Assembly: GCF_001278115.1 (NCBI RefSeq)
Contig: NZ_LIYD01000005.1
Span: 1,556,551-1,620,550 of the forward strand
Length of the DNA stretch: 64,000 nt
Direction of reading: 5' to 3'
Source: Flavobacterium akiainvivens
Lineage (GTDB): Bacteria; Bacteroidota; Bacteroidia; Flavobacteriales; Flavobacteriaceae
The position numbers and the translations under genes were made by a program. The notes beneath the pieces were generated by a model. It was given only the letters and a program-made list of their open reading frames with translations, was not told the DNA's origin and searched no databases. This document shows positions 15,438-42,471 of the stretch, one piece after another. How positions within the stretch are numbered: the stretch's first letter is position 1; each line of letters begins with the position of its first letter.

Positions 15438-16445
15438 TTAATTAAGGTTTAGAATTTCTGCTCCGTCTGTTGCAAATGAGGTGCATAGTTCAAAAGCCTT
15501 TTGGGTTTTTAACTGTGCAGTACCACCCATTACAATACTTTGCAACTTGGCCTCATCATTCTTATAATTGCGTACATTCTGATAGTAGCCTGTAACAGCG
15601 TTGTAAGCCCCGAACAATGTGCCTTTAGTGGTGTCCATTTGCTGTGTATCACTTATCATTGCGTATGCAAAGGCATCCTCTACGGTATTTTTGAACAGGG
15701 TGGAAACTTCATCTTCCGCACCTTTTTTCAGCAAATCAAATGTTTCCTTATTCGGGCAAAGTGCCAATTGGATTAGTTTTCTTACTTCCCTGTCTGTTAC
15801 TTTTACCTTCGCCCACTTATTGAAAATGCTTTCTAACTGGTTGCTTAGTGTGTTCGCCAAGCCCATAACCTTGTGAGCGTTTTCCAAACGTTGTTTTGCT
15901 CCCGAAGTGTGCTTGATGCGTACAACATTGCTCATGTTGCGAAGCGAAGCGTTAAGTGTATTTTGGCATACAATCCTGATAGGTGTAAATGCTGCGGTAA
16001 TGCTTCCGCTACCATCGTGCGAAGTCGTGAGGAAGATATATTTCTCAGTTACGTCATCGCCATTGCCTACACGGATATAGTCAGGAAGTTTTGCGGTTAT
16101 GAATATGCGTTCTCCGTTGCCTAATGCTCCTGCGGTTTCGTACAGAATACCCTCGCCACCGCCTACAATAGCATCGAAGAAATTGAAGGCTTCACGGTTT
16201 TGTACAATGTGATAGTCTTTGCCCACAACACCCAATACAGCATTGTTGTCGGTGCGTACGTTGGCGAAATAGTTGGGTACTTCAAGTTCACTACTGCCTA
16301 TCTCTATGCCGTTTGCAGTTTCGATTATGCCCGAACCTTTGGTAAAAAGTGGGGATTTTACGACTTCATAATCTAACCCTGCGTATTTGATAGCTCCCTC
16401 GCTTGTGGGGTATTGCTCTACGATTTGCCCCAAACCGCGTGCCAT
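15438..16445 (-). CDS. DUF932 domain protein (phage/plasmid-like)
   Basis: This 335-residue protein matches DUF932 (TIGR03299-like), found in phages, plasmids and ICEs. Visible traits are VLGVVGKDYHIVQNREAFNFFDAIVG, the central FLTTSHDGSGSITAAFTPIRIVCQNTLNASL and the C-terminal GTLFGAYNAVTGYYQN. The biochemical role is unknown; association with DNA metabolism genes such as the neighbouring ssb is usual. The start is followed by ARGLGQIVEQYP. A 113-base gap separates it from ssb. Confidence 0.88.
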   Translation of the reverse strand: MARGLGQIVEQYPTSEGAIKYAGLDYEVVKSPLFTKGSGIIETANGIEIGSSELEVPNYFANVRTDNNAVLGVVGKDYHIVQNREAFNFFDAIVGGGEGILYETAGALGNGERIFITAKLPDYIRVGNGDDVTEKYIFLTTSHDGSGSITAAFTPIRIVCQNTLNASLRNMSNVVRIKHTSGAKQRLENAHKVMGLANTLSNQLESIFNKWAKVKVTDREVRKLIQLALCPNKETFDLLKKGAEDEVSTLFKNTVEDAFAYAMISDTQQMDTTKGTLFGAYNAVTGYYQNVRNYKNDEAKLQSIVMGGTAQLKTQKAFELCTSFATDGAEILNLN

Positions 16446-16558
16446 GCTTTTTGTTGTACGCTAAAGAATGAATAACATCCTGTTCTCTCGTTGAAATTGA
16501 TATTATGTGCCATGATATTGATATTTAAAATGTTTGAAATTTGAATGAATAGTTGTTG

Positions 16559-16951
16559 TCAAAATGGTAGGTCATCTTCTATTGGCTGTGGCACTACCTT
16601 GTTACTTTCTACCTTTGCAGTAGCTTGTACGGTTTCTGCTCTTTTGCCACCTCCGTGCAGTTTGATGTTTGAGGTATGGAAATTCAGCCCTGCGTGTGCT
16701 TCTCCGTCATTGCCAGTCCACGCCCTTGCACTTACCCTGCCTGTCAGCTCTACCAATGTGCCTTTGGTGAGTATCTTCGCTACTTTGGGGCTCATCCAGT
16801 ATGAGCAGTCGAAGTAGGTTGTTTGCTCTATGCGTTCGCCCTGTTTTTTACGGTAGCTGTCGTTGGTCGCTATCGAAAAGTTTACTACTTGTTTGTCCTG
16901 TGACGTTGTGCGTACTTCCGCATCCCTTGTCAGTCTTCCTGTGATGTTCAT
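16559..16951 (-). CDS. ssb: Single-stranded DNA-binding protein of the ICE
   Basis: This 130-residue OB-fold protein starts MNITGRLTRDAEVRTT and has QVVNFSIATNDSYRKK and TYFDCSYWMSPKVAKILTKGTLVELTGRV, all SSB traits. The C-terminus ends DDLPF, the acidic tip used by SSB proteins to bind partner enzymes. It probably protects the transferred strand or helps element replication. It is the most upstream gene of the PRTRC-side unit, and the following 675 bases up to the integrase hold no gene. Confidence 0.9.
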   Translation of the reverse strand: MNITGRLTRDAEVRTTSQDKQVVNFSIATNDSYRKKQGERIEQTTYFDCSYWMSPKVAKILTKGTLVELTGRVSARAWTGNDGEAHAGLNFHTSNIKLHGGGKRAETVQATAKVESNKVVPQPIEDDLPF

Positions 16952-17577
16952 GTTTTCTATTTTTTTGCGTTATGAAATTTGTTCTGATTTGATTTTTTTT
17001 AGATTTATTCGGTAATGAGAGGAGGTGCTGAAGTTTCGTTTCACTCTGTTACCGTTTCCAATGCTGTATTTTTCCATTACTGACATTTTTTTTATTCGTC
17101 TAAAGAGCCGGAGTATGCTTTGTTTCGTTTCACGAGCATAAAAGGTTAGTGTTTAGCAGGAACAAGGTTTTGCCAAACAAATACGACCCGCATGGGTGGA
17201 GATTTTTTGGCAAACCCAAGGGGCATGACCTTGTTCCTGGGTTAAGAACACGATCATACCTTTGCTCTTGAAATGGAACAAAAGCGGCATACTGGCTCTT
17301 GAATAAAAACTATGTGGAAGCAGGTGGAAAAGGCATTAGGAAACGGCCCCGTGTGATTACAAAATCTGCATTCAGTTGTAACAGAATTTTTTAAAGACCT
17401 TATATTGTTTCAAAGTATCGTGGCCTGGGAAGCCACGTAAACGATACTGAAAATTTAGTTGAGCAGCAGAAGGGAAGATTTTTTGTATGGTTTATCAGTA
17501 CATCCTGTTAAAGCTCTTTTATGGTAGAGGGTGTGTGCAGGAGAAATAAATGTGCTTTAAGGATTAGGTATGGGCAT
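16952..17577. other. Palindrome-rich non-coding region between ssb and the integrase
   Basis: No gene is seen. A long hairpin spans 17157-17239: outer arms CAGGAACAAGGT / ACCTTGTTCCTG (12 bp, perfect), inner arms TTTGCCAAA / TTTGGCAAA (17169-17177 / 17206-17214), and a top ACCC/GGGT. A second hairpin at 17414-17448 has CGTGGC/GCCACG and AGTAT/ATACT arms. A 12-base direct repeat GTTTCGTTTCAC occurs at 17033-17044 and 17122-17133. These may be binding sites for recombination or transfer proteins, or a structured RNA. Confidence 0.6.
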
Positions 17578-17603
17578 AAAAAAAGCAGGACTTAATCCTG
17601 CTT
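17578..17603 (-). terminator. Terminator of the integrase gene
   Basis: The perfect 8-bp inverted repeat AAGCAGGA / TCCTGCTT (17583-17590 / 17596-17603) has a 5-base loop. On the minus strand it is followed by seven T. It lies 24 bases past the integrase stop. Confidence 0.85.
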
Positions 17604-17626
17604 CGATTTGTAAGTAAATAATAATT

Positions 17627-18892
17627 TTACACAATAACCTCTTCTTCCATTTCAATAAATGCAGCTTCCATTCCGGCGAATTTATGTGATACTAAATCCA
17701 TGTCCTTACTAATTTTCTGACTTGTGATCTTGGCATAAATCTGTGTGGTGGAAATATTTTTATGCCCCATCATTTTGCTAAGGCTTTCAAGTGGCACACC
17801 TTCAGTGAGGAACATGGTAGCAAATGTGTGACGTGCAGTATGGAAAGTTACTTTCTGTTCTGTAATAATTTCCGCTTCCTCTATTAGTTTCTTTACGTGG
17901 CTATTGCAAGTAGCATTGGAAGGAACCGGAAAAACATACTCATTACGGGTAACGCCCCTGTATTTCTCAATAATACGTTTTGGAATTTCCAATAGGCGGA
18001 CGTTTGAAGCAACATCTGATTTTTTCCTTCTGCTAATGATCCATTGGTGGCCATCAAAGAAGGACTGTATATTGCTCCATTTCAGCTTTTGAATATCAAT
18101 ATAGGAAAGCCCTGTAAAGCAACTGAAAATAAAGAGGTCTTTTACAAGTTCGTATTTGGATTTGCACGGTTTGAGAAGCATTAACTTTTCTGCATCCTCT
18201 TTTAAAAGATAGCTGCGATCAGTTTCCTCCATGCTGATTTCATAATCTTCAAAAGGGTTTTGTCGAATCAAGCCTTTTTTAATTGCCAGTTCCGCCAAAG
18301 CAATAACCGGCATGGTATAAACCCAAACCGTGTTATGTGTACATTCCTTATCTATGCGCAGAAAGAAATCGAACTCCCGGATAAAGTCTGAGGTAAGTTC
18401 CCGAAACGCCATATCCTCCCTATGATAGCGTTCCCTGATAAATTCGGATAGATGATTGTAAACGGTCTTGTATTTATAGTAGGTGTTTTGAGAACGTTTG
18501 CCTTTACTGACCATTCTTTCAAAATCCTCATTCTGGTCTTTAAACACTTTAAGGATGGCATCATCCATAACACCAACTCCCAAAAAGGATAGCTTTACTT
18601 TTTGTGCGGTTGCAAAGCCTTCGTCTTTGAGCATATCATCGTAAATCTTATTGATACGCACCCGTATATTGTCCAATTTAAGATTGGTATTCAGCGCCTG
18701 GGCACTTTTACCCAAAACCCTTCCATGCTTTAAGTCCCAATTGTTGGGGTTGATGTCCAGTTTGGTACTAAAGGATTTTGGTGTTCCGTCAATAGTGATA
18801 CGCCCCATAACAGGGACATTCCCGTTCTTCTTAGGTTCATTTTTCTTCAGGTAGAAAAGCAGCTTGAACGTGGATCTTTTCTCTTGTTCCAT
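17627..18892 (-). CDS. Tyrosine site-specific integrase, IntDOT-like
   Basis: The protein is 421 residues long, with an N-terminal arm-binding domain (STFKLLFYLKKNEPKKNG...), a SAM-like core-binding domain (residues about 110-210) and a C-terminal catalytic domain. Catalytic traits are HTARHTF (His-x-x-Arg near 350), GHKN (near 375) and the Tyr in TQIYAKI (near 385). The first conserved Arg is replaced by Ser in CFTGLSYID (near 260); I recall the same exchange in IntDOT. It moves the element in and out of short attachment sites. The inverted repeat TAACTCAAT / ATTGAGTTA (18892-18900 / 18926-18934) frames its promoter region and may bind a regulator. Confidence 0.92.
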   Translation of the reverse strand: MEQEKRSTFKLLFYLKKNEPKKNGNVPVMGRITIDGTPKSFSTKLDINPNNWDLKHGRVLGKSAQALNTNLKLDNIRVRINKIYDDMLKDEGFATAQKVKLSFLGVGVMDDAILKVFKDQNEDFERMVSKGKRSQNTYYKYKTVYNHLSEFIRERYHREDMAFRELTSDFIREFDFFLRIDKECTHNTVWVYTMPVIALAELAIKKGLIRQNPFEDYEISMEETDRSYLLKEDAEKLMLLKPCKSKYELVKDLFIFSCFTGLSYIDIQKLKWSNIQSFFDGHQWIISRRKKSDVASNVRLLEIPKRIIEKYRGVTRNEYVFPVPSNATCNSHVKKLIEEAEIITEQKVTFHTARHTFATMFLTEGVPLESLSKMMGHKNISTTQIYAKITSQKISKDMDLVSHKFAGMEAAFIEMEEEVIV

Positions 18893-19219: not shown

Positions 19220-22200
19220 TCAATCAACAATCTCCACGGTAAGCCCGTTGTTCCAGTTTTTGTGTTCGTTGTTATAATACAGGTAGGCCGATGAGGCTAC
19301 ACCGGTATACTGCCCGGGTATCTGCGCCTTGAGGTCGATGTTTATTTTGCGGGTTTCTTTAGCATCTATAGCCCTGAAATATAATACCAGTTCACTGCCG
19401 AAAATTTCATAATAATCTACCACTTCTTTCTCTACCAGCTCCTTTAGCTGCCACGGCTCGGGCGATGTACCGCCCGGCAGGCCTATGCGCACTATGGGGT
19501 TAAATACCACCTCGTTAGTACGGTTGGTTACCTGTGCCTGTATGCGTGTGGTTTCGCTAACCTTAATTTTAGTTTGCGTAAGGCTTGTTTTAAGCTCCAT
19601 CTGGCAATGTGGCGAATTTTCGGGCTTTATGCTCTGGTAGTTAATGTACAGCAGGTAAGGCGCCGCTGTATTGGTAAAGTGTATGGCAAATTCGTTACTA
19701 CCCTCTTTTAGGGCGGGTGCCGTGTTTATGGCTATATTACCGCCGTTATCATACGTATTAGTAAGGGTAACGCCATTTACTGATGCTGTCAGATCTGCCT
19801 TACCGGGGCCGTACTGTGCCATTTTAGAGTATGTAGTTATAACCTTTAGCGCAAGCGCCGTAGCCTGTGTTGAACCAAACCCATAAGCGTTTTTAGCCGA
19901 CTGTATGTGGTCAATAGCGCCCATTAATTCGCGGCTGGTGGTTTGCTCTTTCATAAGCGCCAGTGCATAAAGCGCCTGCCATTCTACCGTTTTAGAAGTG
20001 CCATAGCTGTGCACCACTGTTTCCTCAATTTTAATTTCATCAGGTTTTTTACCCTCTGTGCCTTCCTTAATATATTGCAGCAGTTTTTTGTATGACGGTA
20101 TATCGCCCAGGTTAAAGGCAGCGTTTGCCATTAGCGCCATGCGGTATACATCGCGGCTTTTAAGTGCCTCATTAAGTGTGGCGTCATATTCTTTCCGGAA
20201 GTCTTTCGCACCAATTTCAGAAAGCACATATACAATATAAGCGTTGTTTACCGCTGCCGGGATGCCGCTGAAACCATACCTGCCCGAGTGCTGCCTGAAA
20301 CCGCCATTGCCGTTTTTACGGCTGTACAGCCATTTGGTGGCACGCTTAACCATTTCGGCATCAACGTTTACAAAATCTTTCATTTCATGAAACTGAAGCA
20401 AACCATAAGCCGTGAGTGCCTCGTGGCCGGGGTTGCCACCATACCACTCAAAACCGCCGCCTTTGCTCTCGTAGTTTTTAAGCTTGTTATAGCCGTTTTG
20501 CAGAAAGCCGAGCGCTTTTTGCTTAAAGGCATCATCCATGCCGCCTTTTGCAGCCAGTAATTGCAGTGCCATAATGTTAGGATAATTGCTGGACGACACC
20601 TGCTCAAAACAGCCATAAGGTTCGCGCAGCATGGCCTCAAGGTTTTTGGTAAGCTCGGTAAAGGGGTTAACAATGCAGCGCAGTTCAGATTCAATGGTGT
20701 TGGGTACTACATTAGCCAGGTTAAAGCTGCCCGTTGCCGACCTCATGCCTGAAAAACTTACGCTTACCGGGAAGCCCTTGGCGTTTATGTCCATCTGCTT
20801 TTTAATGGATGTGGTAAAGCCGTTTGCCTTAACAGTTATGTGTACCGGCACTTTACTGCCTGTTTTTATGGCCTTTACGGCGAAGTATACCGTTTTGGCC
20901 TCGTTGGCGGCAAGCTTTACATCATGGGTTGGGGTGTTTACGGTAAAATACGGTGTGGGCTGTAGTTCTGCCGTAACGGTAATGGTTTCACCGGTGTTGT
21001 TTTTAACCCACAGCGGCAGGTTGATAACGTCTTTCTGGGTGGAGTATAACGGCAGCTTTACATCGGTTTGCAGGGGGGCTTTAACCGTGTAGCTCAGCTT
21101 GCCCATGCCCAAATCGCCTTTGTATGAAGTGCCTTCTGCAAGGATGCTGAACGTGCCCGTATCATCTGAATTATAAAACTCAAAGTGTGCCGTGCCCTGT
21201 GCATTGGTTTGCACCGTACCGTTCCAGTAGAGGCAGTTCCTGAAGTCGGTTTTTTCATCAGTCAGGGTGGTTGTATACACCGGGGTGTAAAATGCGGCGG
21301 CGGTGTTTAATTTGCGGCCGCCGTTTTGGTGCACCTGCTCGTAGGTATAATGGTTGGTTTTGCCCAGGTAAATGCCGTGTGCATCGGTGCCGTTTTTAGT
21401 GGTAATAAGTATAACCCCGTTAGCCCCGCGCGAACCATAAACCGCAGTGGCATTGGCATCTTTAAGTACGGTGATGCTTTGTATCATGTGGGGTGAAACT
21501 GTATTAAGCACCGACCTGTTTTCGTTATTAACCATAGGGATACCATCTACAACAAACAGCGGGTCGCCGCTGTAAACAGACCTTGCACCCCTTATACTTA
21601 TTGCAGCATTGGCGCCCGGTTGGCCGGTGCCGGTTTGCACATCTACACCCGCTACCCTCCCTGCCAGGTTTTGCAACGGTACGCCCTCTACGCGCACCGT
21701 GGTTACCGTAGCATTAGAAAGGTTACGGCTAACCGTGCCATAGCCTACCACCACAACCTCTTCAAGCCGGTTGCTGTCTTCGCCCAGCGATATCTTTTCG
21801 CCCTGCACTTCCTGTTTGGCTTCGGTAGTAGTAACAATGCCCTGTTTGGCAGGCATGGCCGGGGTGTTGTATTCTATACCCGTTACCTTAAGGGAATCTT
21901 TCAGGGCCACCACATTGTTATAATTTGATATGGAGTTAATTATCTTGTGTTGGCGGTTGCGGCGGCTTTCGGCAACAAGCCAGGCAATGTTGCCAAAATT
22001 CATACGCGGAAATTTAAAATACCCCTTGTTGTTGGCCTTTGTTTCATACACCTTACCGTCTTCAGTAAGCAGGTATACTTTTAACGATGCCGGTTTGCCC
22101 GTAAGGGTTTGTACAAAGCCTTCCACATCGCCCGATCTTTCGGGGCTTACTACCGGTGCTGAGCCTGTAAAACCGTTAACATCCTGTTGTGTGTAGCGCC

Positions 22201-23734
22201 TCCACCCATGGGTATTGAGCAGCAGGTCGAGCGCCTGCATGCGTTTTTCAAGCGGTTCTTTGGCATCAAAATAAAAGCGGGGCTCGTGCACGGTACCTTT
22301 TAGCTCCTGCCCAAAATACATCCAGGTAAGCAGGTTGTGCTGCTTGTCGTCAATATAGCTCAACAGCTTTTCATCTACTACAGATATGCTTAGAGCCGAT
22401 GGCACAGGGTTGCCGTCAATATCTTTTGTTATAATCGTGGCCTGTACTTTTTCGCGCGGTTTGTATTCGGGCTTATCGGTTTGGAGGGTAATGTTGAGCC
22501 CGTCCTGATAATTGAGGAATACCAGGCGCTCGGCCACTATCTGTCCGTCTACCACCATAGATACGGCATATGCGCCTATAGGATATTTTGTGGTGGGGAG
22601 AATATATTTTGGTGTACGATTAAGGTCTACGGTAAAAGAACCGTGCACCTTATCCTGGTTGCGGATGAGCAGCCCGCAACTGCTTTTGCCCGGTGCGGTA
22701 AAGCTAATTTCAACAGCCTTGTCCTTGTTTTCTACCATGAGGCTATAGCCGCTTTTTAATGGTGCAGGCAGTGCATATTTTTGCCTTCCGGCGAAGGGGG
22801 CCGTGAGCACCGCCTCATAACTTTTGCCGGCCTGCGGGGTAAAGGCCACCTTGCCCATACCATCGTAAAAGCTCATAAAATCAGCTACCTTATTGCCCTG
22901 GGCATCCTGTATGTAGCCCGAAACATCGAGCGGTTTGCCAAACTCGTTCTTCGCAATAAAAAACACATTGGCGGGCTGGCCCACAATGTACTGCCCCCCT
23001 TCAGGTAAAAACTGTAAATCGGCATAGTTAAGGCTTATGGGTATGGAGCGCGTAACCGACTCCTGCATGCCTTCATAGCTTACCTTTACATTTACAATAC
23101 CATCGTTAACCTTAATATCACGGGGCAGCGTAATGCGCACTACGGCCTTGCCCTCATCATTAGTAACACCGGTAAGGGTGCCCAACGCTTTGCCCTCTAC
23201 ATAGGCATCATATTCAAACGGCTGGCACGCCAGGGGCTGGTTATCGTTGCTTTTCAGGGTAAAATCGGCTTCAGCCACCTCGCCCGGCCCATAGCCTTTT
23301 TTCTTGAAGTCGAGTGTCATGAGCAGCCTTGCAGCCGATACCTTCTGCACAAAAAAGCTCTTTTCAAAACCGGGTTCGCCCAGTAACTGCTGCATTTTTG
23401 TGTAGGCTTTTATGCGGTAGAGCCCGCCCGGCAGCTCTTTGCCAAGCGTAAAAGAACCCTGTGCCCTACCCTGCGACAACAGGTAGCACTGCCGGGCAAT
23501 AGGCTTGCCTGCACCATCATACACATCGGCATACACATAATCGCTTTGTGTAGTGGGGGTATTATTGGCATTGGTTGCATACAGTGTAAAATACACGGTT
23601 TCTTCGGGCAGGTACAGCACATTGTTAAGGTGGGCATATACTTTTTCCTGCTGCCGGGCTTTGTAAAAAGCATCGGGCGACTGCGCCTGTACAACCGCGT
23701 TTATAAGGAGGATTATGGTGAGTATTTTTTTCAT
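19220..23734 (-). CDS. Alpha-2-macroglobulin-like protein with an embedded TonB-receptor plug domain
   Basis: This very large secreted protein has 1504 residues and a signal peptide (residues 1-17). MG-type beta-sandwich domains fill the N-terminal half (EKVYAHLNNVLYLPEETVYFTLYA is an MG2-like start). Residues about 655-785 form a complete SusC-type plug: LEEVVVVGYG, SIRGARSVYSGDPLFVVDGIP and ITVLKDANATAVYGSRGANGVILITTKNG. The A2M domain follows (DFRNCLYWNGTVQT), then a thioester domain with GCFEQ near residue 1040, the CxEQ motif of bacterial macroglobulins, and an alpha-helical toroid. No beta-barrel is present. It starts 9 bases after the barrel gene stop, so both are made together. Protease trapping is the known family role; the plug is the odd part. 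Confidence 0.85.
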   Translation of the reverse strand: MKKILTIILLINAVVQAQSPDAFYKARQQEKVYAHLNNVLYLPEETVYFTLYATNANNTPTTQSDYVYADVYDGAGKPIARQCYLLSQGRAQGSFTLGKELPGGLYRIKAYTKMQQLLGEPGFEKSFFVQKVSAARLLMTLDFKKKGYGPGEVAEADFTLKSNDNQPLACQPFEYDAYVEGKALGTLTGVTNDEGKAVVRITLPRDIKVNDGIVNVKVSYEGMQESVTRSIPISLNYADLQFLPEGGQYIVGQPANVFFIAKNEFGKPLDVSGYIQDAQGNKVADFMSFYDGMGKVAFTPQAGKSYEAVLTAPFAGRQKYALPAPLKSGYSLMVENKDKAVEISFTAPGKSSCGLLIRNQDKVHGSFTVDLNRTPKYILPTTKYPIGAYAVSMVVDGQIVAERLVFLNYQDGLNITLQTDKPEYKPREKVQATIITKDIDGNPVPSALSISVVDEKLLSYIDDKQHNLLTWMYFGQELKGTVHEPRFYFDAKEPLEKRMQALDLLLNTHGWRRYTQQDVNGFTGSAPVVSPERSGDVEGFVQTLTGKPASLKVYLLTEDGKVYETKANNKGYFKFPRMNFGNIAWLVAESRRNRQHKIINSISNYNNVVALKDSLKVTGIEYNTPAMPAKQGIVTTTEAKQEVQGEKISLGEDSNRLEEVVVVGYGTVSRNLSNATVTTVRVEGVPLQNLAGRVAGVDVQTGTGQPGANAAISIRGARSVYSGDPLFVVDGIPMVNNENRSVLNTVSPHMIQSITVLKDANATAVYGSRGANGVILITTKNGTDAHGIYLGKTNHYTYEQVHQNGGRKLNTAAAFYTPVYTTTLTDEKTDFRNCLYWNGTVQTNAQGTAHFEFYNSDDTGTFSILAEGTSYKGDLGMGKLSYTVKAPLQTDVKLPLYSTQKDVINLPLWVKNNTGETITVTAELQPTPYFTVNTPTHDVKLAANEAKTVYFAVKAIKTGSKVPVHITVKANGFTTSIKKQMDINAKGFPVSVSFSGMRSATGSFNLANVVPNTIESELRCIVNPFTELTKNLEAMLREPYGCFEQVSSSNYPNIMALQLLAAKGGMDDAFKQKALGFLQNGYNKLKNYESKGGGFEWYGGNPGHEALTAYGLLQFHEMKDFVNVDAEMVKRATKWLYSRKNGNGGFRQHSGRYGFSGIPAAVNNAYIVYVLSEIGAKDFRKEYDATLNEALKSRDVYRMALMANAAFNLGDIPSYKKLLQYIKEGTEGKKPDEIKIEETVVHSYGTSKTVEWQALYALALMKEQTTSRELMGAIDHIQSAKNAYGFGSTQATALALKVITTYSKMAQYGPGKADLTASVNGVTLTNTYDNGGNIAINTAPALKEGSNEFAIHFTNTAAPYLLYINYQSIKPENSPHCQMELKTSLTQTKIKVSETTRIQAQVTNRTNEVVFNPIVRIGLPGGTSPEPWQLKELVEKEVVDYYEIFGSELVLYFRAIDAKETRKINIDLKAQIPGQYTGVASSAYLYYNNEHKNWNNGLTVEIVD

Positions 23735-23743
23735 GATGTCGGG

Positions 23744-26509
23744 TTAAAATTTAATGCCTACCGAAAGGCCGTACATGCGTTGCAGGGGTGAGTTAAAATA
23801 GTCGAGTCCTGATGTTTCGGGTGCATTAAACATGGTGTTTGCACTAAAGGCCGTTTTGCTTTTAGCTACCACAAACACATTGTTTATAAATACCGAAACC
23901 GTATAGCGCGGCGCATGGCTGTAGTTATACCTGTATTCGTTAGAATAGCTTAGCGACAGGTTATTAAAGCGGAAGTAGGTGGCGCTCTCTATAGCGCTTT
24001 CGGCTACGCCTGCCGCACCGTAGCGCTGCCAGCGGTTTTGGGTAACGGGCTGGGTAACATCATAAAAGCTAACAGGCTGTGTGTTGGGCTGACCGCTTTG
24101 GGTAACGCCGTTAAACACATAATTGGTAACGTTGCGCTGCTGCCCGGAAAGCCCCGAAACACCATAATAATCAAGCGTTTGCCCGGTGCCGTTCCATAGC
24201 TGGCCGCCCCTGCTCCAGTCAAAACCCAGGTTAAGGCTAAAGCGGTGCACGCGCAGGGTGGTGTTAATACCCAGTACAAAATCAGGGTTTGGGTCGCCTA
24301 TAACCTTTGGTTCTGCCGCCACGAGCGGAAAACCGTCGCTGCCCACCACAATATTGTTATACGCATCGCGCTCATAAGCGCTGCCCACAATGGCGCCCAA
24401 CGGCTGGCCTACCATATAGTTTTTATTTACATCGGCAAAACCGGCAATGGCTATGCGGCTGCCCCCGCCGCGCACGGCAGTTACCTTGTTTTTATAGGTA
24501 CTGAAGCTAAGTGTGTGGCTAAACATTACATCGTCGCCATTTATATAATGATCGTACGATGCCGAAACCTCCAGCCCGCGCTGGGTGTAGTCTGCAGCAG
24601 GCATCCAGGCAAAAGTGCCACCTTGGTTAACGGGGGCATACAGGTTGCTGATGTCTTTTTTGTACAGCTCCAGCCTTGCCGATACCGGCCATTTGTATTC
24701 GGCACCCACACTGTAGTTGGTTTCCCGCGTAAGCAGGGTGGTATTTGGGGCAAAAAGTTCCTGGGTGGCGCTCATTTGCTTAAAATCTGAAACCCGATAC
24801 AACAGGCTGTTAAAAGCAAGGTTGTTGTATTGCAGCACAGGCTCATACTGCTTAACTGCCACATTGCCAAACAAGGCAAAGCGCTCTATAACATCATCCC
24901 AGTCAAAACCGGCATAGCCGCCAAAGTATATATTGTTTTTATAGGTTGACGAATAGCCTGCATCGGCAGCGGCATTAAGTAAAAGGTCATCATAATAACC
25001 CAGCAGGCTGTTTACGCGGTATTTTGCATTGAGGTTAAGGTTAGCCGATGCCCTGCTTTGCCTGCGTGAAATACTGAATTGGTCATCGGCCACAGCCGGA
25101 TAAGCATCAAGGCCGGTAAAGCCTTCTAAGTAATCGCGCTGCAAATCACGCTCCTGGTAGTTAAGCAACAGGCGGGCACCCAGGCTAAGGCCATTATGCC
25201 CCTGATAGGTAAAATTATTTTCAGCCAAAATACTGTTGTACATCTCTTTGCGCTGGGTATAATCTCCCCCTGCCACCTGTGCGGCAAAAGGCACGTTGCC
25301 CCCGGTGTTCTCTATATTGCTAAACTGTGCGGTAACCGTTGCTGTGTTATTAATGCGGTCATAATGGTATTCATCGCTAACCTTAAAAGTGTACAGGTTG
25401 CTCAGGTTTTCGTCAAGGTTGTAATCCAGCAGGTAGTAGGGGTTGTTTTCAAGGTTGCTGTAGCTGCGGGGCAGGCCGCCGGGCAACACGCTGCCCAGGC
25501 CGTTATTAAAGTGCGTCGGGGTAACGGCATTGGCAAAAATGGCCTTGTTGTATATAAAGTTAAAGTTGCTCAGGTTGTTGTTAAACCGGTTGTAACCCGC
25601 CGTGGCAGTAAGGTTGTGCTTTGTGAGCGGTATAAAGTAGGTAAAGGTAGTATTAACCTCATTGCTTGTTGCCGTGGGCAGTATGCCGTTGCCGCTTTTG
25701 TAGCTCATGCCCAGCTTGAGGTAATCGCGCTTTGGCATGAGCAATTTAGCCGAAAGGGTGGTTTTTTGCTCATAGCTGTTGCGAAACAAGCCATTGCGGT
25801 TGTAGGTTGCCACAGGGCTGCCCACACCGGGGGTTATGTCTCCGCCGGGGTAGTATGGGGTGGCATTTGCAGTGGTTTGCAGGGTGCTTATGGCAGGGCC
25901 CCAGCTAAAGGGTTCGCCGGTTTCGGGGCTTTGATAAGTAGCAGCGCCATTAAGGCTCCTGCCCTGTGCATATGTGTTTTGATAGCCGTGCAGCCTAATG
26001 GGTGTGCCAATGGTAAAATCGTGGTACAGCTCCAGGAACAGCTTGTGGTAGTCCCTTGCCGTGACAAACGTATACTCATTATCCTTATCCTTTTTAACCA
26101 GCACTACATTGTTATAAGAATATTGATCCTTAAAATAGGTACGGGTTGTACCCGATGGTTCGGGCACCCGGGTATCATTACCCTCTTTAATAAGGGCGTT
26201 GGCAAAATCATCGCTCAGTATGGGTTTTACCTCGCCGGTGCCGGTAGCAATAACGCTGCCTGTGGCGGTAATAGTAAACTCACGCGTTACCATGCCTATG
26301 TAGTTAACCTGTATAATATCGCCGGGCTTAACCTGCAGGGTATAGTTGCCCTCAATATCGGCCGTGGTGCAGTTAGTCGTGTTCTTAACACAAACGTTGG
26401 CACCGGGCAGCGGCATACCGTCAGCATCGCTCACTATGCCCTTGTAGGTAAAAAACTGGCCATAGCCAAAAATGGGAAAAAAGAGGAACAGGAGTAAAAA
26501 GTATCTCAT
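23744..26509 (-). CDS. SusC-like outer-membrane barrel lacking a plug domain
   Basis: About 921 residues when started at the ATG at 26509, where the signal peptide begins (MRYFLLLFLFFPIFGYGQ); an in-frame ATG lies 36 bases upstream. A CarboxypepD_reg-like domain follows (residues about 20-95, with two Cys). Where a SusC protein would have its plug (EVVVVGYG, IRG, VDG, LKDASA, ANGVI motifs), only a short linker of about 60 residues is found. The sequence then goes straight into barrel strands (YQNTYAQG, FSWGP). The C-terminus LQRMYGLSVGIKF is a normal barrel end. The missing plug is present in the next gene. The barrel should serve import or display at the outer membrane; substrate unknown. 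Confidence 0.85.
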   Translation of the reverse strand: MRYFLLLFLFFPIFGYGQFFTYKGIVSDADGMPLPGANVCVKNTTNCTTADIEGNYTLQVKPGDIIQVNYIGMVTREFTITATGSVIATGTGEVKPILSDDFANALIKEGNDTRVPEPSGTTRTYFKDQYSYNNVVLVKKDKDNEYTFVTARDYHKLFLELYHDFTIGTPIRLHGYQNTYAQGRSLNGAATYQSPETGEPFSWGPAISTLQTTANATPYYPGGDITPGVGSPVATYNRNGLFRNSYEQKTTLSAKLLMPKRDYLKLGMSYKSGNGILPTATSNEVNTTFTYFIPLTKHNLTATAGYNRFNNNLSNFNFIYNKAIFANAVTPTHFNNGLGSVLPGGLPRSYSNLENNPYYLLDYNLDENLSNLYTFKVSDEYHYDRINNTATVTAQFSNIENTGGNVPFAAQVAGGDYTQRKEMYNSILAENNFTYQGHNGLSLGARLLLNYQERDLQRDYLEGFTGLDAYPAVADDQFSISRRQSRASANLNLNAKYRVNSLLGYYDDLLLNAAADAGYSSTYKNNIYFGGYAGFDWDDVIERFALFGNVAVKQYEPVLQYNNLAFNSLLYRVSDFKQMSATQELFAPNTTLLTRETNYSVGAEYKWPVSARLELYKKDISNLYAPVNQGGTFAWMPAADYTQRGLEVSASYDHYINGDDVMFSHTLSFSTYKNKVTAVRGGGSRIAIAGFADVNKNYMVGQPLGAIVGSAYERDAYNNIVVGSDGFPLVAAEPKVIGDPNPDFVLGINTTLRVHRFSLNLGFDWSRGGQLWNGTGQTLDYYGVSGLSGQQRNVTNYVFNGVTQSGQPNTQPVSFYDVTQPVTQNRWQRYGAAGVAESAIESATYFRFNNLSLSYSNEYRYNYSHAPRYTVSVFINNVFVVAKSKTAFSANTMFNAPETSGLDYFNSPLQRMYGLSVGIKF

Positions 26510-26778: not shown

Positions 26779-27714
26779 CTATAAACTTAACCAAACTATA
26801 GTTTTTCCTTTTTGTATTGTTAACTTACCCTTTTTCAAAGAGATAGGCACCACGGCAGTCTTGCGCGGGGCTACTTCTGTATCGCTAAAATGGGTATGGA
26901 ACACATAATACATATTTCCTTTCTTGTCATAGAACACGTCGCCGTGCCCTGAACCCGGATAGCCTACCGTATGGCGGCTGATAAATGGGGTACTGACCTT
27001 CTTCCACGGACCGTAAGGTGTTGATGCTGTGGCATATCCCACGGCATAATCCTTATTCCTGAAGTCATTTGCCGAATAAATCAGGTAGTAGGTACCGTCT
27101 TTTTTAAGCACCGTAGGGCCCTCAGTTACAGTCCATTTCACTTTTTCGGTGTCCTCCCATTGCTCTGTAGCCGTAATACACTCTTTTAAGGTATTGGTTT
27201 TCAGGGCGGTGAAATCAGGCTCCATCTCGGCTACGAAAATACGGTTGCCGTTATCAAGCCTAACGTGGTACATATAGACCTTGCCGTCCTCAAAATAGAT
27301 GTAGGGGTCAATTTGCCTAACATCTGATTTTATGGCATTTCCATCGTTTTTAAACGGACCTAACGGGCTGTCGGCCACAGCGATAGCAATGTTTTCATCG
27401 GCTGTATAGGCCATGTAAAACTTGCCGTTATGCTGAAAAACCTGTGGCGCCCAGAAGCCCCATGTGCCAAAACCGTCGCCTTTTTTAAAGGCATAACCGT
27501 CGTGCGCACCGGCAGGGCCGCTCCAGGTCTTGAGGTCGGTACTGGTATACACCAGAAATCCCTCACCCTCAATGGCTTTGCTGCCCTTGGTACCATACAG
27601 GTAGTAGGTACCGTTGTGCTCAAAAATGGTAGGGTCGGCCAGCAGCGGGTTGTTGTCCTGCGCGTAAATCACCACAGAAAACAACATGATATACAAATAC
27701 TTAACTAACTTCAT
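26779..27714 (-). CDS. Secreted GH43 family glycosidase
   Basis: This 311-residue protein has a signal peptide (residues 1-18) and the five-bladed propeller of GH43. The catalytic triad is visible: Asp in LADPTIF (base), Asp in QIDPYIYFEDGK (pKa modulator) and Glu in VTEGPTVLKKDG (acid). GH43 enzymes are inverting arabinofuranosidases, arabinanases or xylosidases; the exact linkage cannot be read from sequence. It is the last gene of the minus-strand PUL arm, 3 bases after the epimerase gene. Confidence 0.85.
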   Translation of the reverse strand: MKLVKYLYIMLFSVVIYAQDNNPLLADPTIFEHNGTYYLYGTKGSKAIEGEGFLVYTSTDLKTWSGPAGAHDGYAFKKGDGFGTWGFWAPQVFQHNGKFYMAYTADENIAIAVADSPLGPFKNDGNAIKSDVRQIDPYIYFEDGKVYMYHVRLDNGNRIFVAEMEPDFTALKTNTLKECITATEQWEDTEKVKWTVTEGPTVLKKDGTYYLIYSANDFRNKDYAVGYATASTPYGPWKKVSTPFISRHTVGYPGSGHGDVFYDKKGNMYYVFHTHFSDTEVAPRKTAVVPISLKKGKLTIQKGKTIVWLSL

Positions 27715-27717
27715 ACC

Positions 27718-28890
27718 TTATTTTTTTACGCTAAAGCGGTACTCCGATACCGTGTGGTATGCTGCGCCCGGTTCAAGGGTTATGGGTGCAAATGCAGGCT
27801 GGTTTATAGCATCAGGGAAATGCTGTGTTTCCATGGCAAATGCCGTCCTGAAATCATCCTTAGCACCTGATTTAAAGGTGTTTTGGCCTTTCATAAAGTT
27901 ACCGCTATAGAACTGTAAACCAGGCTCTACCGTGTAAACATCCATCTGTATTCCGCTCTTATCACCCACTACAGTAGCCGCTTTTTCAAGGCCTTTGCCT
28001 GTAGTGTTAAGCGCATAGTTGTGGTCATAACCTGCACCATTTTTAAGTTGCTGGTTTTCAGCCTCTACACGTTCTCCAATGGTATGGAATGTGGTAAAAT
28101 CAAACGGGGTGCCGGCAACAGCCTCAAGCTTGCCAAACGGTATAAGCCCCTCATCTACAGGAGTGTATTTGTTTGCATTAATCATAACCTGGTGGTTAAG
28201 AATGGTGCCGCTACCCTCTCCGTTAAGGTTAAAGAAGGCGTGGTTCGTAAGGTTTACCGGTGTTTTGGCATCGGTAGTGGCCTTATAATCCATTTTAAGG
28301 GTTTGGTTGTCGTCTACCGAATAGGTAACCGTAACCTTAAGGTTGCCCGGGAATCCCTGCTCCCCATCAGGCGACAGGTAACTGAATACAAGTGTTTTAG
28401 CATCGGTTTGCTTTACATCCCAAACTACATCCTGAAAGCCTTTTTTGCCACCGTGCAGGCTGTTAACGCCGTTGTTTAGCGGCACATGGTATTCTTTGCC
28501 GTCTACCTTAAAAGTACCCTTGGCAATGCGGTTGCCCACACGGCCTATGGTAGCGCCAAAGTATGGTTCGCTCGAGTTTTTAAAGTCTGACACACTGCCG
28601 TGGCCTACCACAACATCGGTCATAACACCCTTGCTGTCAGGCACCCAAAGACCCACAATGCGTGCGCCGTAGTTGGTAAAGGCAATTTTAATGTCCTTGG
28701 CTTCAATAAAATAAAGACCGGTAGCCTTACCATCTATAGTACTCTCAAAATCAGCTTTTTTCAGTTCGGCAACCTGCTTTTCAGTGGTTGGTTTTTCGGT
28801 ATTGCCGTTATTGGCAGGGGTTTCGTTTTTGCATGAAACAATTACTAAAACCCCTGCTAAACAGCAAATTATACTTTTATACTTCTTCAT
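27718..28890 (-). CDS. galM: Aldose 1-epimerase (mutarotase), lipoprotein
   Basis: This 390-residue protein has a lipoprotein signal (IVSC near residue 20), so it is probably tethered in the envelope. GalM traits are NNGVNSLHGGKKGFQ (His), NLTNHAFFNLNGEG (catalytic His) and FAMETQHFPDAINQP (catalytic Glu). It interconverts the alpha and beta anomers of released aldoses, feeding uptake or catabolism. It lies between the GH-A enzyme and the last GH43 with gaps of 3 bases on each side. Confidence 0.92.
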   Translation of the reverse strand: MKKYKSIICCLAGVLVIVSCKNETPANNGNTEKPTTEKQVAELKKADFESTIDGKATGLYFIEAKDIKIAFTNYGARIVGLWVPDSKGVMTDVVVGHGSVSDFKNSSEPYFGATIGRVGNRIAKGTFKVDGKEYHVPLNNGVNSLHGGKKGFQDVVWDVKQTDAKTLVFSYLSPDGEQGFPGNLKVTVTYSVDDNQTLKMDYKATTDAKTPVNLTNHAFFNLNGEGSGTILNHQVMINANKYTPVDEGLIPFGKLEAVAGTPFDFTTFHTIGERVEAENQQLKNGAGYDHNYALNTTGKGLEKAATVVGDKSGIQMDVYTVEPGLQFYSGNFMKGQNTFKSGAKDDFRTAFAMETQHFPDAINQPAFAPITLEPGAAYHTVSEYRFSVKK

Positions 28891-28893
28891 AAA

Positions 28894-29988
28894 TTACTTT
28901 ACTCCGTTAAGTTTCTTGATAATATTAACCTCGTCCTGGCGGTATGGCGTACCATCCTGGCGGAACACATCGTGGAACCAAATATCAGGCTCATCACCAC
29001 TTGGCACCGGGGTACTCCATGCATAAATGGTATTACTCTTACCGGCAACAAGGCCCCAGTTTATAGCGCCAATGTTTTGCTCTTTAAGCAGCGCCATGTG
29101 GTTGTAAAAGCTGTTGTTTTTTGTACGGGCCATATACTCAGTACATATCATTGGCCTGTCGTGCGTTTTTAGCAGGTTAATTATGCGCTTGTGGCCGTCC
29201 ATATCCTCATAGAAGTGATAGGTTACAATATCTGAGTTTTGTGCCTGTAAGGTATTTAGCTCTGGCAGGTTCCAGTTCCATAAACCGGCTGAAATAGGCT
29301 GGCTTGGGTTTGCCTCGCGTGCCCATTTAAACACATTTTTTAGTAGCGGAAGGCTCTTAGCGCCTTTGTTGCTGTTGCCGGGTTCATTATATAAGTCCCA
29401 CAGTAATATCCTTTTATCGGTACCAAACGTTTTAAGGATATCTTTTACATAGGCCTCAAGCTCTTTATCATCGGCATGTTCTACATCCGGGTAACCGGGA
29501 TCCTGCATCCAGCCCGAGTTGTGTATTCCCGGCTTTGGCTCCGGTTGCTTGCCCACTGCGGGATTCGGGTTCCAGCAGTCGTCAAAAAACACAAACATGG
29601 TAGATATGCCGTGTTTGTCAGAAATTTTAAGGTATTCCTCCATGCGCTTTTTAAAGCCTTTTGGGTCAGCCTTATAGGCCACACTGTGCAAAAACACACG
29701 CATGGTGTTAAAGCCAACTCCCTGTGCATAACCCAGTTCGCGGTCTATGGTTTTAGGGTCAAAAGTGCTTTCCTGCCACATTTCAAGCTGGTTAATGGCA
29801 TTGCTTGGTATAAAGTTAGCGCCCGATATCCACTTGTGTTCGGCATACCATTTATCGGCTTTTTCCTTGCTCCATTTCTGGCCTTCAAGGGTTATTGTTT
29901 TTTCAGTTGTAGCTGTACCTGATGTAAGGTTAAACACCGAAACGCCTAAACTTGCCACAAGTGCGAGTGATACAATAGCTTTTCTCAT
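28894..29988 (-). CDS. Secreted clan GH-A (GH5-like) glycosidase, copy 1
   Basis: This 364-residue protein has a signal peptide and a (beta/alpha)8 barrel of the GH5/cellulase kind. The acid/base Glu is in LLWDLYNEPGN and the nucleophile Glu in MICTEYMAR; FNTMRVFLHS is the strand with the conserved Arg. Similar proteins are often named 1,4-beta-xylanase, but the substrate is not established and I cannot place it in a subfamily. It is a paralogue of the gene at 31101. Eleven bases separate it from the GH43 gene upstream. Confidence 0.8.
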   Translation of the reverse strand: MRKAIVSLALVASLGVSVFNLTSGTATTEKTITLEGQKWSKEKADKWYAEHKWISGANFIPSNAINQLEMWQESTFDPKTIDRELGYAQGVGFNTMRVFLHSVAYKADPKGFKKRMEEYLKISDKHGISTMFVFFDDCWNPNPAVGKQPEPKPGIHNSGWMQDPGYPDVEHADDKELEAYVKDILKTFGTDKRILLWDLYNEPGNSNKGAKSLPLLKNVFKWAREANPSQPISAGLWNWNLPELNTLQAQNSDIVTYHFYEDMDGHKRIINLLKTHDRPMICTEYMARTKNNSFYNHMALLKEQNIGAINWGLVAGKSNTIYAWSTPVPSGDEPDIWFHDVFRQDGTPYRQDEVNIIKKLNGVK

Positions 29989-29999
29989 TGCTTAGTTGT

Positions 30000-31025
30000 T
30001 TATTCAGATGGAATTTGTAATGTTTGTTTGTTAGATACCGGAGTGCCCAGGTTTGGGGTACCATCGGCGTTCCAGCTTATTTTTTGCATGCGTGGCGAAC
30101 GTTTGTTGCCACAGCCTTCGCCGGGATTGTCATTTGCATGGAAAAGTATCCAGTCTTCCTTGCCATCTGCCGATTTAAAGAATGAGTTATGGCCTGGTGC
30201 ATACACGCCGTTTTCTTCGCTTTTAGCAAAAACAGGTTTTTCGCTCTTAGTCCAGTTTTGCGGCACCATAGGGTCGGTTCCCGTTAGGCGCAGCATACCC
30301 AGTGCATAAAAATCGGTCCAGCAGCCACTTGCAGAATATATAATAAATACATCTTTACCGTGCTGAAGGAACTGCGGGCCTTCGTTCACGTTAACGTGTG
30401 GCGGGTTAACAGCGTCATCAAGGTCGCCCTGTTTTTCCCAGTTGTGTGTAGGCTGAGACAGCAGCACCCTGTTGCCTTCAATAGTCCACGGATTAGACAT
30501 TTTGGCTATATAGATGTTTTGCTGGGTGTTGGTATCGCCTTCCCACCCACTCCATATCATGTAGAGCTGGTTGTTTAGTGTAAACACGTTACCATCTATA
30601 GCCCAGCGGTCTATGGGTGCTGCAATCTTGCCTTTAAACTCCCATTTGCCTTTAAACGGGTCTTCTGAGGTATTCTCCAGCACATACATGCGGTGGTTGT
30701 TGTTATTACCATCATCGGCAGCAAAATAAGCATACCATTTGTTGTTTATAAAATGAAATTCCGGCGCCCATATTTCTTTAGACCAGGCAGTTCCGGCTGG
30801 CGGAGTCCATACCAGGGTACTTTCGGCATTTTTAAGGTCGGCCAGGTTTTTGGTTTTCCACAACATAAGCTTATCGCCCAGGGTGTGGGTGTAATAGTAA
30901 TAACCGTTGTGGTAGGTGCTGTATGGGTCGGCACCGCCGGGCAGCAACGGGTTGTTAAAGGTTTTTTTCTGGGCATACAGGCCGCTAACAGCAAGTAGCG
31001 AGAGTAAAACTAACTTCTTCTTCAT
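30000..31025 (-). CDS. Secreted GH43 family glycosidase, exo-arabinanase-like
   Basis: This 341-residue protein has a signal peptide (cleavage near GLYAQ). GH43 catalytic positions are visible: Asp in LPGGADPYSTYHNGYYYY, Asp in WAIDGNVFTLNNQLYMIWSG, Glu in VNVNEGPQFLQHG. The GADPY start and WSGWEGD segment fit the subgroup that includes exo-acting alpha-1,5-L-arabinofuranosidases (GH43_26 type), which is a moderate-confidence placement. A terminator-like hairpin lies just upstream at 31040-31071, so its level may differ from that of earlier genes. Confidence 0.83.
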   Translation of the reverse strand: MKKKLVLLSLLAVSGLYAQKKTFNNPLLPGGADPYSTYHNGYYYYTHTLGDKLMLWKTKNLADLKNAESTLVWTPPAGTAWSKEIWAPEFHFINNKWYAYFAADDGNNNNHRMYVLENTSEDPFKGKWEFKGKIAAPIDRWAIDGNVFTLNNQLYMIWSGWEGDTNTQQNIYIAKMSNPWTIEGNRVLLSQPTHNWEKQGDLDDAVNPPHVNVNEGPQFLQHGKDVFIIYSASGCWTDFYALGMLRLTGTDPMVPQNWTKSEKPVFAKSEENGVYAPGHNSFFKSADGKEDWILFHANDNPGEGCGNKRSPRMQKISWNADGTPNLGTPVSNKQTLQIPSE

Positions 31026-31039
31026 TGGGATGTGTTTTG

Positions 31040-31071
31040 AAAAAGCCGGGATAACAGTGCCATCCCGGCTT
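31040..31071 (-). terminator. Intercistronic terminator-like hairpin within the glycan operon
   Basis: The perfect 10-bp inverted repeat AAGCCGGGAT / ATCCCGGCTT (31043-31052 / 31062-31071) is followed on the minus strand by T residues. It sits between two enzyme genes of the same operon, so it may attenuate transcription of the downstream genes. Confidence 0.65.
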
Positions 31072-31100
31072 AATCCTTTCTACATAATATTAACTCAAAT

Positions 31101-32285
31101 CTATTTCTTATTCACTTCAGAAGTAATCTTCTTAATGAAATCAGTTTCAGCTTTAATGTAAGGTGTTCCGTCTGTGTGGAATACATCGTGGAACCATACC
31201 GGCGGCTCGGCAGTATAGGTTTTAGTCCAGCTGTCCCAAGGGTACTTGGTTTGCATTTTACCGTCTACAAGGCCCCAGTTTATCATGCCTACATTGTATT
31301 TTTTAGCTACCGGAAGGAAGCCCTCAAAGGTACTGCCATTTGGCCTTGCCATATATTCTGTACAAATCATTGGTTTGCCAAAACGCTCCAGCTGCTTAAT
31401 CCTGTTTTCAAAATCCTGCGGCTTGTCATAGCAATGGAAAGTAATAATATCTGACTGCTCAAGCTGCATTTTGTGGAAATCGTTGATTTTGCCTTCAGAC
31501 CAGTCTCCTTGCCATACGCCCGATGTTACAGGCTGGCTTGGATTAGCCGAACGCGCCCAGTCAAAAACTTGTGGAAGCAACTTGCCAATAAGCTCAACTT
31601 TGTTTTTTATCTCTACTTTTTCGTAAGAAGGGCCTGTCATGTTATCGGGCTCATTCCATACATCCCAGCCCAAAACGCGCTTGTCATCTTTAAAACGGGC
31701 TACGGTTTCTTTTACATATTTTTCAAGGCGTGGGTACTGGGTTGAGTCCAGTAGCGCTTTTTGGCCCGGGGCCTGTGCCGAACCTGAGTTGTGCACGTGT
31801 GGCTTAGGTGCACGCTGCTTGCCCAGTACCGGGAACGGATCCCAGCAAGAATCAAACAATACAAACAGGGTTTTAATATGGTGTTTATCTGCAATGGCAA
31901 GATACTCCTCTACACGCTTATAAAAACCTTCAGGGTCTTGCTGGTGCAACAGGTCGTGCAGGTACACACGCATACAGTTCATACCAATGCTTTCGGCCCA
32001 GCCCAGTTCTTTATCAATAGCAGCGGGATCAAAAGTATCGGCCTGGAACATTTCAAGCGTGTTGATGGCATTAGAGTTTGTAAAGTTAGCACCCACATAC
32101 CATGGCTGCTGTGCATACCACTGATTGGCTTCTTCTTTAGTCCATATTTTTCGTTCAACTACTTCAGTTGTAGCTTTTTCGTCTTTTTTCTCTGCTTCTT
32201 TGTTGTCTTTGCACGAAAAAAGCATTAGCCCGGCCGCAAGTGCAAGGGCAAAAGGAGTGTTTTTTAATACTTTAACTGTGTTCAT
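31101..32285 (-). CDS. Lipoprotein clan GH-A (GH5-like) glycosidase, copy 2
   Basis: This 394-residue paralogue of the protein at 28894 has a lipoprotein signal (LFSC near residue 25) in place of a plain signal peptide, so it is likely surface- or envelope-bound. Acid/base Glu is in VLGWDVWNEPDN and nucleophile Glu in MICTEYMARPNG. The shared WYAQQPWYVGANFTNSNAIN start is typical of this group. The two copies differ by lipidation, which suggests one free and one anchored enzyme acting on the same glycan class. Confidence 0.8.
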   Translation of the reverse strand: MNTVKVLKNTPFALALAAGLMLFSCKDNKEAEKKDEKATTEVVERKIWTKEEANQWYAQQPWYVGANFTNSNAINTLEMFQADTFDPAAIDKELGWAESIGMNCMRVYLHDLLHQQDPEGFYKRVEEYLAIADKHHIKTLFVLFDSCWDPFPVLGKQRAPKPHVHNSGSAQAPGQKALLDSTQYPRLEKYVKETVARFKDDKRVLGWDVWNEPDNMTGPSYEKVEIKNKVELIGKLLPQVFDWARSANPSQPVTSGVWQGDWSEGKINDFHKMQLEQSDIITFHCYDKPQDFENRIKQLERFGKPMICTEYMARPNGSTFEGFLPVAKKYNVGMINWGLVDGKMQTKYPWDSWTKTYTAEPPVWFHDVFHTDGTPYIKAETDFIKKITSEVNKK

Positions 32286-32388
32286 AATTGTTTAGTATAA
32301 TACTGCTTAAGTGCAGATTTAGTAAGGTTTTGCCGCCATACACGGCTATTTTTTAAACAAACTTCTTTTTCCTGGGATGGAATTCTTC

Positions 32389-33426: not shown

Positions 33427-33445
33427 AATGTTGTTTTGAAAAATA

Positions 33446-33478: not shown

Positions 33479-33488
33479 GTATTATTTA

Positions 33489-35018: not shown

Positions 35019-35037
35019 GGTTGCAATTTATATCTGA

Positions 35038-42380: not shown

Positions 42381-42414
42381 GGCACAGTAAAATTTGATAG
42401 GTATTTTAAAATAT

Positions 42415-42457: not shown

Positions 42458-42471
42458 CTATGCTGCCCACT

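Follow-up and report, generated by a model that had tools for sequence, protein, structure and literature searches.

A plug-bearing macroglobulin and a plugless SusC-family barrel encoded side by side in Flavobacterium akiainvivens: a probable naturally split TonB-dependent receptor

In a 64,000-nucleotide stretch of the Flavobacterium akiainvivens genome (contig NZ_LIYD01000005.1, positions 1,556,551 to 1,620,550; hereafter the window), two neighbouring genes appear to share out the parts of one SusC-type TonB-dependent receptor. The first encodes a SusC-family barrel protein of 921 amino acids (aa) from its ATG (open reading frame (ORF) 23744-26509, -), or of 933 aa from an alternative TTG start at 26545, and it has no plug; the second encodes an alpha-2-macroglobulin-like protein of 1504 aa (ORF 19220-23734, -; hereafter MG), and it carries a SusC-type plug. 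From the sequences and models of the two proteins and their relatives, we propose with a probability of roughly 0.8 that the pair is a naturally split TonB-dependent receptor, in which the plug of MG works in trans in the neighbouring barrel. The features of the pair are as follows, with structural predictions from AlphaFold2 (AF2), whose per-residue confidence is the predicted local distance difference test (pLDDT).

23744..26509 (including stop), - strand: plugless SusC-family outer-membrane barrel gene, 921 aa (TIGR04056 positions 217-981, no PF07715, AF2 model)
26258..26443, - strand: N-terminal CarboxypepD_reg-like domain (NTE) of the barrel protein, residues 23-84 (PF13715, 44.7 bits)
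26117..26245, - strand: low-confidence stretch of the barrel protein, residues 89-131 (pLDDT, no plug match)
23747..26047, - strand: predicted 22-strand barrel, residues 155-921 (VIA-align to BT2264 SusC)
23735..23743, no strand: 9-base intergenic gap between the barrel gene and the MG gene (ORF positions)
19220..23734 (including stop), - strand: MG with inserted plug, 1504 aa (PF01835, PF07715, PF00207, PF07678, PF07677)
21917..23734, - strand: N-terminal MG2-containing half of MG, residues 1-606 (PF01835 at 39-116; homologue alignment)
21785..21937, - strand: hypervariable tether preceding the plug, MG residues 600-650 (pairwise identity, pLDDT)
21737..21766, - strand: TonB-box-like motif LEEVVVVGYG, MG residues 657-666 (conservation; likeness to the BT1763 Ton box)
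21389..21781, - strand: SusC-type plug domain, MG residues 652-782 (PF07715, TIGR04056 positions 65-209, bounds from a hidden Markov model (HMM), profile match to solved SusC plugs)
20969..21229, - strand: A2M-family (MG7-like) domain, MG residues 836-922 (PF00207)
19829..20653, - strand: thioester-containing domain (TED), MG residues 1028-1302 (PF07678, 71.7 bits)
20600..20614, - strand: thioester motif GCFEQ, MG residues 1041-1045 (motif, conserved in relatives)
19259..19495, - strand: C-terminal receptor-binding (MG10-like) domain, MG residues 1414-1492 (PF07677, 21.9 bits, just over the cut-off of 21.7)

An initial annotation of the window had claimed that the SusC-like protein lacks a plug, that the gene 9 bases further on encodes a macroglobulin with a SusC plug, and that the other SusC proteins of the window keep plug and barrel in one chain, and domain searches on both proteins bore out all three statements. 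A Pfam scan of the barrel protein found CarbopepD_reg_2 and no Plug (PF07715), and its best stretch on the SusC/RagA model TIGR04056 (981 positions; NCBIfam) was positions 217-981 (residues 163-921), complementary to the stretch covered by MG, which matched positions 65-209 only (residues 644-785). An HMM built from 47 plugs of SusC proteins with plug and barrel in one chain (cis plugs) had no match at E <= 0.1 in the window barrel or in 53 homologous barrels. The three other SusC proteins of the window (35038-38064, 46879-49956 and 61203-63968, the last truncated by the window end) have plug and barrel in one chain, and in the whole genome, where plug and barrel frames were compared by eye, all 18 other frames with a C-terminal SusC barrel region hold a plug, leaving this barrel as the one of 19 without. 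The NTE, which in ordinary SusC proteins precedes the TonB box, stays on the barrel protein, and only the TonB box and the plug have moved; residues 89-131, where an ordinary SusC would have these two next, include the parts of the model with pLDDT below 50 (residues 89-99 and 105-131). The AF2 model of the barrel protein (50 aligned sequences) reached a mean pLDDT of 89.1 and a predicted template modelling score (pTM) of 0.81, with 22 long strands in residues 156-920 (counted by hand on the DSSP line), and its best PDB matches in Foldseek and VIA-align were SusC proteins. VIA-align placed residues 155-921 of the model on residues 170-984 of BT2264 SusC (5fq6_B; Z 24.0, root-mean-square deviation (rmsd) 3.8, 702 aligned) and residues 154-921 on residues 234-1017 of RagA (6slj_A; Z 23.1, rmsd 4.4, 634 aligned), and on SusC chains that include their own plug the match started behind the plug. 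The top structural match, BT1763 (5t4y_C, Z 26.0), is uninformative on the plug because this chain of 807 residues begins at 210. Modelling predicts a complete barrel of 22 strands without a plug.

In MG, Pfam detected MG2 (PF01835), Plug (PF07715), A2M (PF00207), TED_complement (PF07678) and A2M_recep (PF07677), with the plug at residues 687-774 scoring 51.5 bits (cut-off 23.9) and lying between the macroglobulin domains and the A2M and TED domains, about where the bait region lies. A profile of residues 310-1504 matched, on the one hand, human A2M, CD109, TEP1 and C3 and, on the other, SusC plugs of known structure; behind the insert (profile position 520, about residue 829) it starts aligning at residue 728 of human A2M, which we take to be the end of the bait region. 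The AF2 model of the same residues (pLDDT 76.8, pTM 0.54) resembled A2ML1, CD109, TEP1 and A2M in Foldseek. Residues 600-650 showed a mean pairwise identity of 13%, versus 42% for the plug and 50% for residues 830-920, and pLDDT was 29-52 in blocks from residue 610 on; a hypervariable, low-confidence tether is found at about the place of the bait region, but the segment holds a plug. The motif LEEVVVVGYG is the putative TonB box of this plug, and its residues L657, E659 and V661 were at least 90% conserved among 53 proteins. The CxEQ motif (GCFEQ in the window MG) was kept in 52 of 53 uncut plug-bearing relatives, while the remaining one, L118, has GSLEQ, a Cys-to-Ser change in the thioester motif, together with a reversed gene order. 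By our own reading the first 45 residues of the window MG contain no Cys, so a lipoprotein anchor was not found there; a loose lipobox pattern occurred in 2 of 75 uncut loci (L085 and L093), both plug-bearing.

To follow the pair across genomes, contigs were scanned with MG residues 796-1504, a query from which the plug was excluded and could therefore not bias the search; the best 80 of 568 relatives were kept as loci, and HMMs for the plug, the barrel and the MG parts were applied to them. Five loci cut by contig edges were set aside (L074, L086, L111 and L112 with a plug, L119 without). Among these best 80 of 568 relatives, a plugless barrel was adjacent in 53/53 uncut loci with a SusC-type plug and in 0/22 without one, the 22 including L098, which has a broken frame. 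With further fetched loci and the window (L098 dropped, G133 added, 50 bits as the threshold for a SusC-type plug), all 91 MGs with such a plug, 87 of them distinct by a difference of > 2% in the last 400 residues, had a plugless barrel at most 195 bases away, versus none of the 22 unplugged MGs, one of which (L137) has a weaker plug match of 29.9 bits. The intergenic gap was 0-10 bases in 71 of the 91 pairs, with starts called mechanically. When the search was started from the barrel, 11/11 matches in 299 genomes of the family adjoined an MG with a plug (in G470 a short contig truncates both), as did 25/25 plugless-type matches in 395 genomes of the order, plugless-type being defined by an alignment from the first eight profile positions and a frame of 923-958 aa, and the single additional match of this type (G1497:C70, L270) from 395 genomes of the class; the 11-, 25- and 91-locus sets overlap. 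The other 23 matches in the order lay in frames of 827-1089 aa, and the six fetched with flanks (L271-L276) all have the plug in cis; L272, considered as a second natural split receptor, proved to be a frameshifted ordinary SusC. The architecture occurs in many genera, including those of Flavobacteriaceae, Chitinophagaceae, Cesiribacteraceae, Fulvivirgaceae, Sphingobacteriaceae and Dysgonomonadaceae, and MG was present in 7 of 199 Flavobacterium genomes at E <= 1e-40. A contig labelled Limnohabitans, a proteobacterium, also carries the pair (L070), groups among the Flavobacterium sequences and is probably a mis-binned contig of a metagenome-assembled genome.

Besides MG and the barrel, no neighbour family was common to more than 8 of 74 loci, and a conserved third gene was sought and found only within one family of the order. 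A SusD HMM, built from three window proteins that were confirmed as SusD, matched only one of the 80 loci (L087), beside an ordinary SusC, and no SusD was among the recurrent neighbours of the pair. Conserved regulation by an extracytoplasmic function (ECF) sigma factor was rejected: 38/91 plugged and 5/22 unplugged loci have a sigma-like gene at most 9 kb away, largely in two lineages, so such a gene is no constant part of the locus.

The plugs of the paired MGs were compared with those of ordinary receptors and with plugs found in other macroglobulin-like proteins. With the cis-plug HMM, the paired MG plugs had a median of 119.9 bits (72.3-153.3, 54/54), versus 46.1 bits (23.1-73.3, 15 proteins) for MG2-plug proteins without an adjoining plugless barrel, hereafter short plugs. 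The loop before IRG (pattern G..G....IRG) was retained in 35/54 paired, 36/47 cis and 1/15 short plugs, and the TonB-box-like motif in 51/54, 39/47 and 12/15, respectively. By these sequence measures the MG plugs are of receptor quality. Once MG distances were corrected for, plug distances still tracked barrel distances (partial r 0.235, 2000 permutations, p 0.001, n=51, with L116, L117 and L132 left out for irregular frames), compared with +0.046 and -0.147 for the same partial correlation of plug distances with the two MG halves, which gives a weak sign that plug and barrel vary together. In a tree with 76 cis barrels, the 26 trans barrels included (those of 24 of the 53 scan loci, the window and L280) formed one clade (100), joined (98) by the barrel of L269, a single 1623-aa chain composed of NTE, VIT, vWA, TonB box, plug and barrel (L269:7408-12279, -); with a root among the cis barrels, this single sequence is the sister of the trans barrels. 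L269 has ECF-sigma-like and FecR-like genes upstream, judged by look. Its VIT-vWA relatives were considered as another trans-plug system and rejected, since the 13 fetched loci had neither plug nor barrel by HMM. Traces of a plug persist in the MG clade that has no SusC-type one: LNEVVV-like remnants (by eye) in several members, half a plug in L120, and in L137 and L138 a diverged plug (L137: Pfam 41.6 bits, with TonB_C) that has no plugless barrel to go with it; the root of the MG tree is not fixed, and the pattern looks like plug loss or decay where the barrel is absent. For L137 and L141, a barrel beside the unplugged MG was considered and dismissed, since Pfam does not identify the large frames upstream as receptors.

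Several observations weigh against a plug working in trans. The plug region of the MG model had block means of 26-65, a low confidence that may reflect folding only inside the barrel or merely a thin alignment. The tree of 86 macroglobulins shows a single change of plug status; read from this tree, the pairing is one event kept long over many Bacteroidota families, with no repeated gains, and Fisher's 2e-19 therefore overstates the association and is no independent evidence. The plug tree gave little resolution, so that a single origin of the trans plugs was not shown by it, and the plug of L116 grouped with cis plugs (97). The C-terminal residue of the 53 homologous barrels was F in 28, I in 21 and L in 4. 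Plugs also occur elsewhere: the F. akiainvivens genome encodes a 2205-aa A2M with CarboxypepD_reg and a plug (L063:3684-10301; Pfam plug at residues 1319-1411, before the A2M domain) and no adjoining plugless barrel; 15 MG2-plug proteins, mostly of 824-913 aa, were found in 12 genomes of the class, likewise with no adjoining plugless barrel, and their short plugs hold VDG-like, LK-like, YG and NGV-like motifs in 15/15 each and IRG in 10/15; and L137:6944-12094 is a full-length MG with CarboxypepD_reg, a diverged plug and TonB_C at the plug position, with no adjoining SusC barrel. Because plugs occur in proteins without an adjoining plugless barrel, a plug alone is no proof of docking. The initial annotation had listed a plug-bearing macroglobulin gene without a plugless barrel as something that would refute it; no such case occurred among the 91 full-length MGs with a SusC-type plug, but the other architectures just listed are such cases.

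The MG2-plug proteins (L042-L051, L060-L062) are without TED and have low-scoring plugs, some of them in tandem (L044, L046), and two of their loci lie near ordinary SusC genes (L047, L050). In 12 of 13 searched MG2-plug genomes no plugless barrel was recognisable by length among the 43 matches listed, all in frames of at least 1009 aa, a check in which part of the candidates were scored in most genomes and the plugs of the frames were partly checked. Half a plug is also found in an M56-like protein of the F. akiainvivens genome (L065; named by eye), again with no adjoining plugless barrel.

These stray plugs bear most directly on the explanation that the MG plug serves only as a recruited adaptor, binding for example TonB or some other partner in the periplasm, and stays out of the barrel next door; this barrel would then stand open, or its own loops or N-terminal domain would close it. 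Such use is suggested by the plug or half-plug modules of other non-receptors (the 2205-aa A2M, the M56-like protein, a 156-aa protein, the short MG2-plugs, L137 and vWA proteins) and by the low-confidence modelling of the MG plug; however, in the full-length MG family the barrel gene comes only with a receptor-quality plug, the plugs of short MGs that have no plugless barrel beside them get much lower scores, and a 22-strand pore left open would presumably do harm, so we regard an adaptor role alone as unlikely. The 156-aa protein, composed of two half-plugs and with a signal-like N-terminus by eye, is encoded directly upstream of the plugless barrel in L039 (L039:5623-6093).

A further possibility is that another plug protein closes the barrel in trans and that the MG plug is a competitor or relic. 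It draws on one other family of the order, in which a second plug-type protein lies in the cluster of the pair in 20/20 fetched loci (L280:4384-14585 and 19 similar loci: L040, L279, L281-L297), at 68 bits or more in 18 of the 20. The four of these proteins that were scanned have a plug and vWA (L280 with Por_Secre_tail; L282, L283 and L294 with vWF_A and YfbK_C), and an ECF-sigma gene lies within 9 kb in 19 of the 20 clusters, Pfam-confirmed in L280; a single barrel served by two different plug proteins would be another oddity. However, no second plug protein adjoins the pair in the window, the fetched stretches outside that family gave only scattered plug-type matches (L039, L077, L083, L087, L093, L105), and MG is the constant partner, which makes this explanation very improbable. 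That the pair is an artefact, a broken SusC gene with a chance domain insertion in one genome, could be argued from the unusual architecture alone and from the frameshifted SusC seen elsewhere (L272), and is refuted by the intact frames and by the conservation of the same architecture in many genera.

Returning to the naturally split receptor, we compare it with known systems. With SusC/RagA transporters (TIGR04056; BT1763, RagA, BT2264) the pair shares the barrel sequence and fold, the CarboxypepD_reg-like NTE, the TonB-box motif and the plug, but its TonB box and plug are on another polypeptide and it has no recurrent SusD partner. With thioester proteins of the A2M/complement type (human A2M, A2ML1, C3, TEP1; E. 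coli ECAM/YfhM) it shares the macroglobulin, A2M, TED (with CxEQ) and receptor-binding domains, but the window MG has a plug and two tethers between the macroglobulin domains and the A2M domain and, unlike the ECAM/YfhM type, no N-terminal lipoprotein Cys. L269 resembles the pair in that its barrel joins the trans barrels and a large extra module precedes its TonB box and plug, but it is one chain, known from a single sequence, with VIT-vWA as the module instead of MG/TED. In the laboratory-made split of FpvAI, according to PMC10994204, separately made parts work together in vivo: a soluble FpvAI plug supplied in trans lets the FpvAI barrel import pyocin again, at a reduced level, although this plug carries no other protein. 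For BT1763, PMC7782687 gives the Ton box as DEVVVTG, with growth defects like those of SusD loss upon its deletion or replacement, and describes the plug as displaceable from the barrel in vitro. In view of the moved TonB box, read with the BT1763 data, and of the FpvAI reconstitution, we consider it probable that the MG plug works in trans; together with the split itself, the pairing, the retained motifs and the complete barrel model, these support, short of proof, what the initial annotation had proposed as the simplest reading.

Insertion of the plug in the barrel, periplasmic placing and pulling by TonB are steps that we infer. The first gene would give a 22-strand SusC-family pore without a stopper, and the second an exported-looking MG with an intact thioester motif and with the SusC TonB box and plug inserted on flexible tethers. 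The plug would enter the pore from the periplasmic side, close it and dock MG there. Plugs of TonB-dependent transporters have both ends on the periplasmic side of the barrel, and the body of MG should therefore lie under the pore. TonB would pull the plug via the TonB box on MG; if the plug segment were pulled or cut, the pore should open and the shielding fold around the thioester should be disturbed. We tentatively suggest, as the likeliest role, a trap or escort at the pore, capturing a protein, peptide or protease on entry. A little less likely is a TonB-linked, complement-like trap in which the stopper replaces the bait region, so that a pull or cut of the plug would both open the pore and fire the thioester; the fired thioester would covalently catch an incoming protein (a protease, bacteriocin or nutrient protein) as it enters the periplasm. 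For ECAM, PMC4498604 describes activation as the untethering of the bait region upon cleavage.

In the window, the pair is adjoined by genes for a DUF932 protein, a single-stranded DNA-binding protein (SSB) and a tyrosine recombinase (15438-18892), which suggests the edge of a mobile element. A sugar-use locus flanks it on the other side (26779-46695), with two GH43 genes, an aldose epimerase, a SusC-SusD pair and two hybrid two-component sensors. PADLOC defence-system models gave no match for MG, the barrel or the recombinase at E <= 0.001.

To our knowledge, all known TonB-dependent receptors carry the plug in the barrel chain, and no description of such a pair was found among open-licence PMC papers other than preprints, mostly judged from listings. 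If it exists as proposed, such a split receptor would represent a new way of gating an outer-membrane pore, with the plug on a thioester protein of the A2M/complement superfamily, and bacterial macroglobulins would gain a defined docking place. The debated movement of the plug would become directly testable, since the barrel could be left as it is while the plug is added, removed or labelled, and protein capture of the A2M type would be linked to TonB energy.

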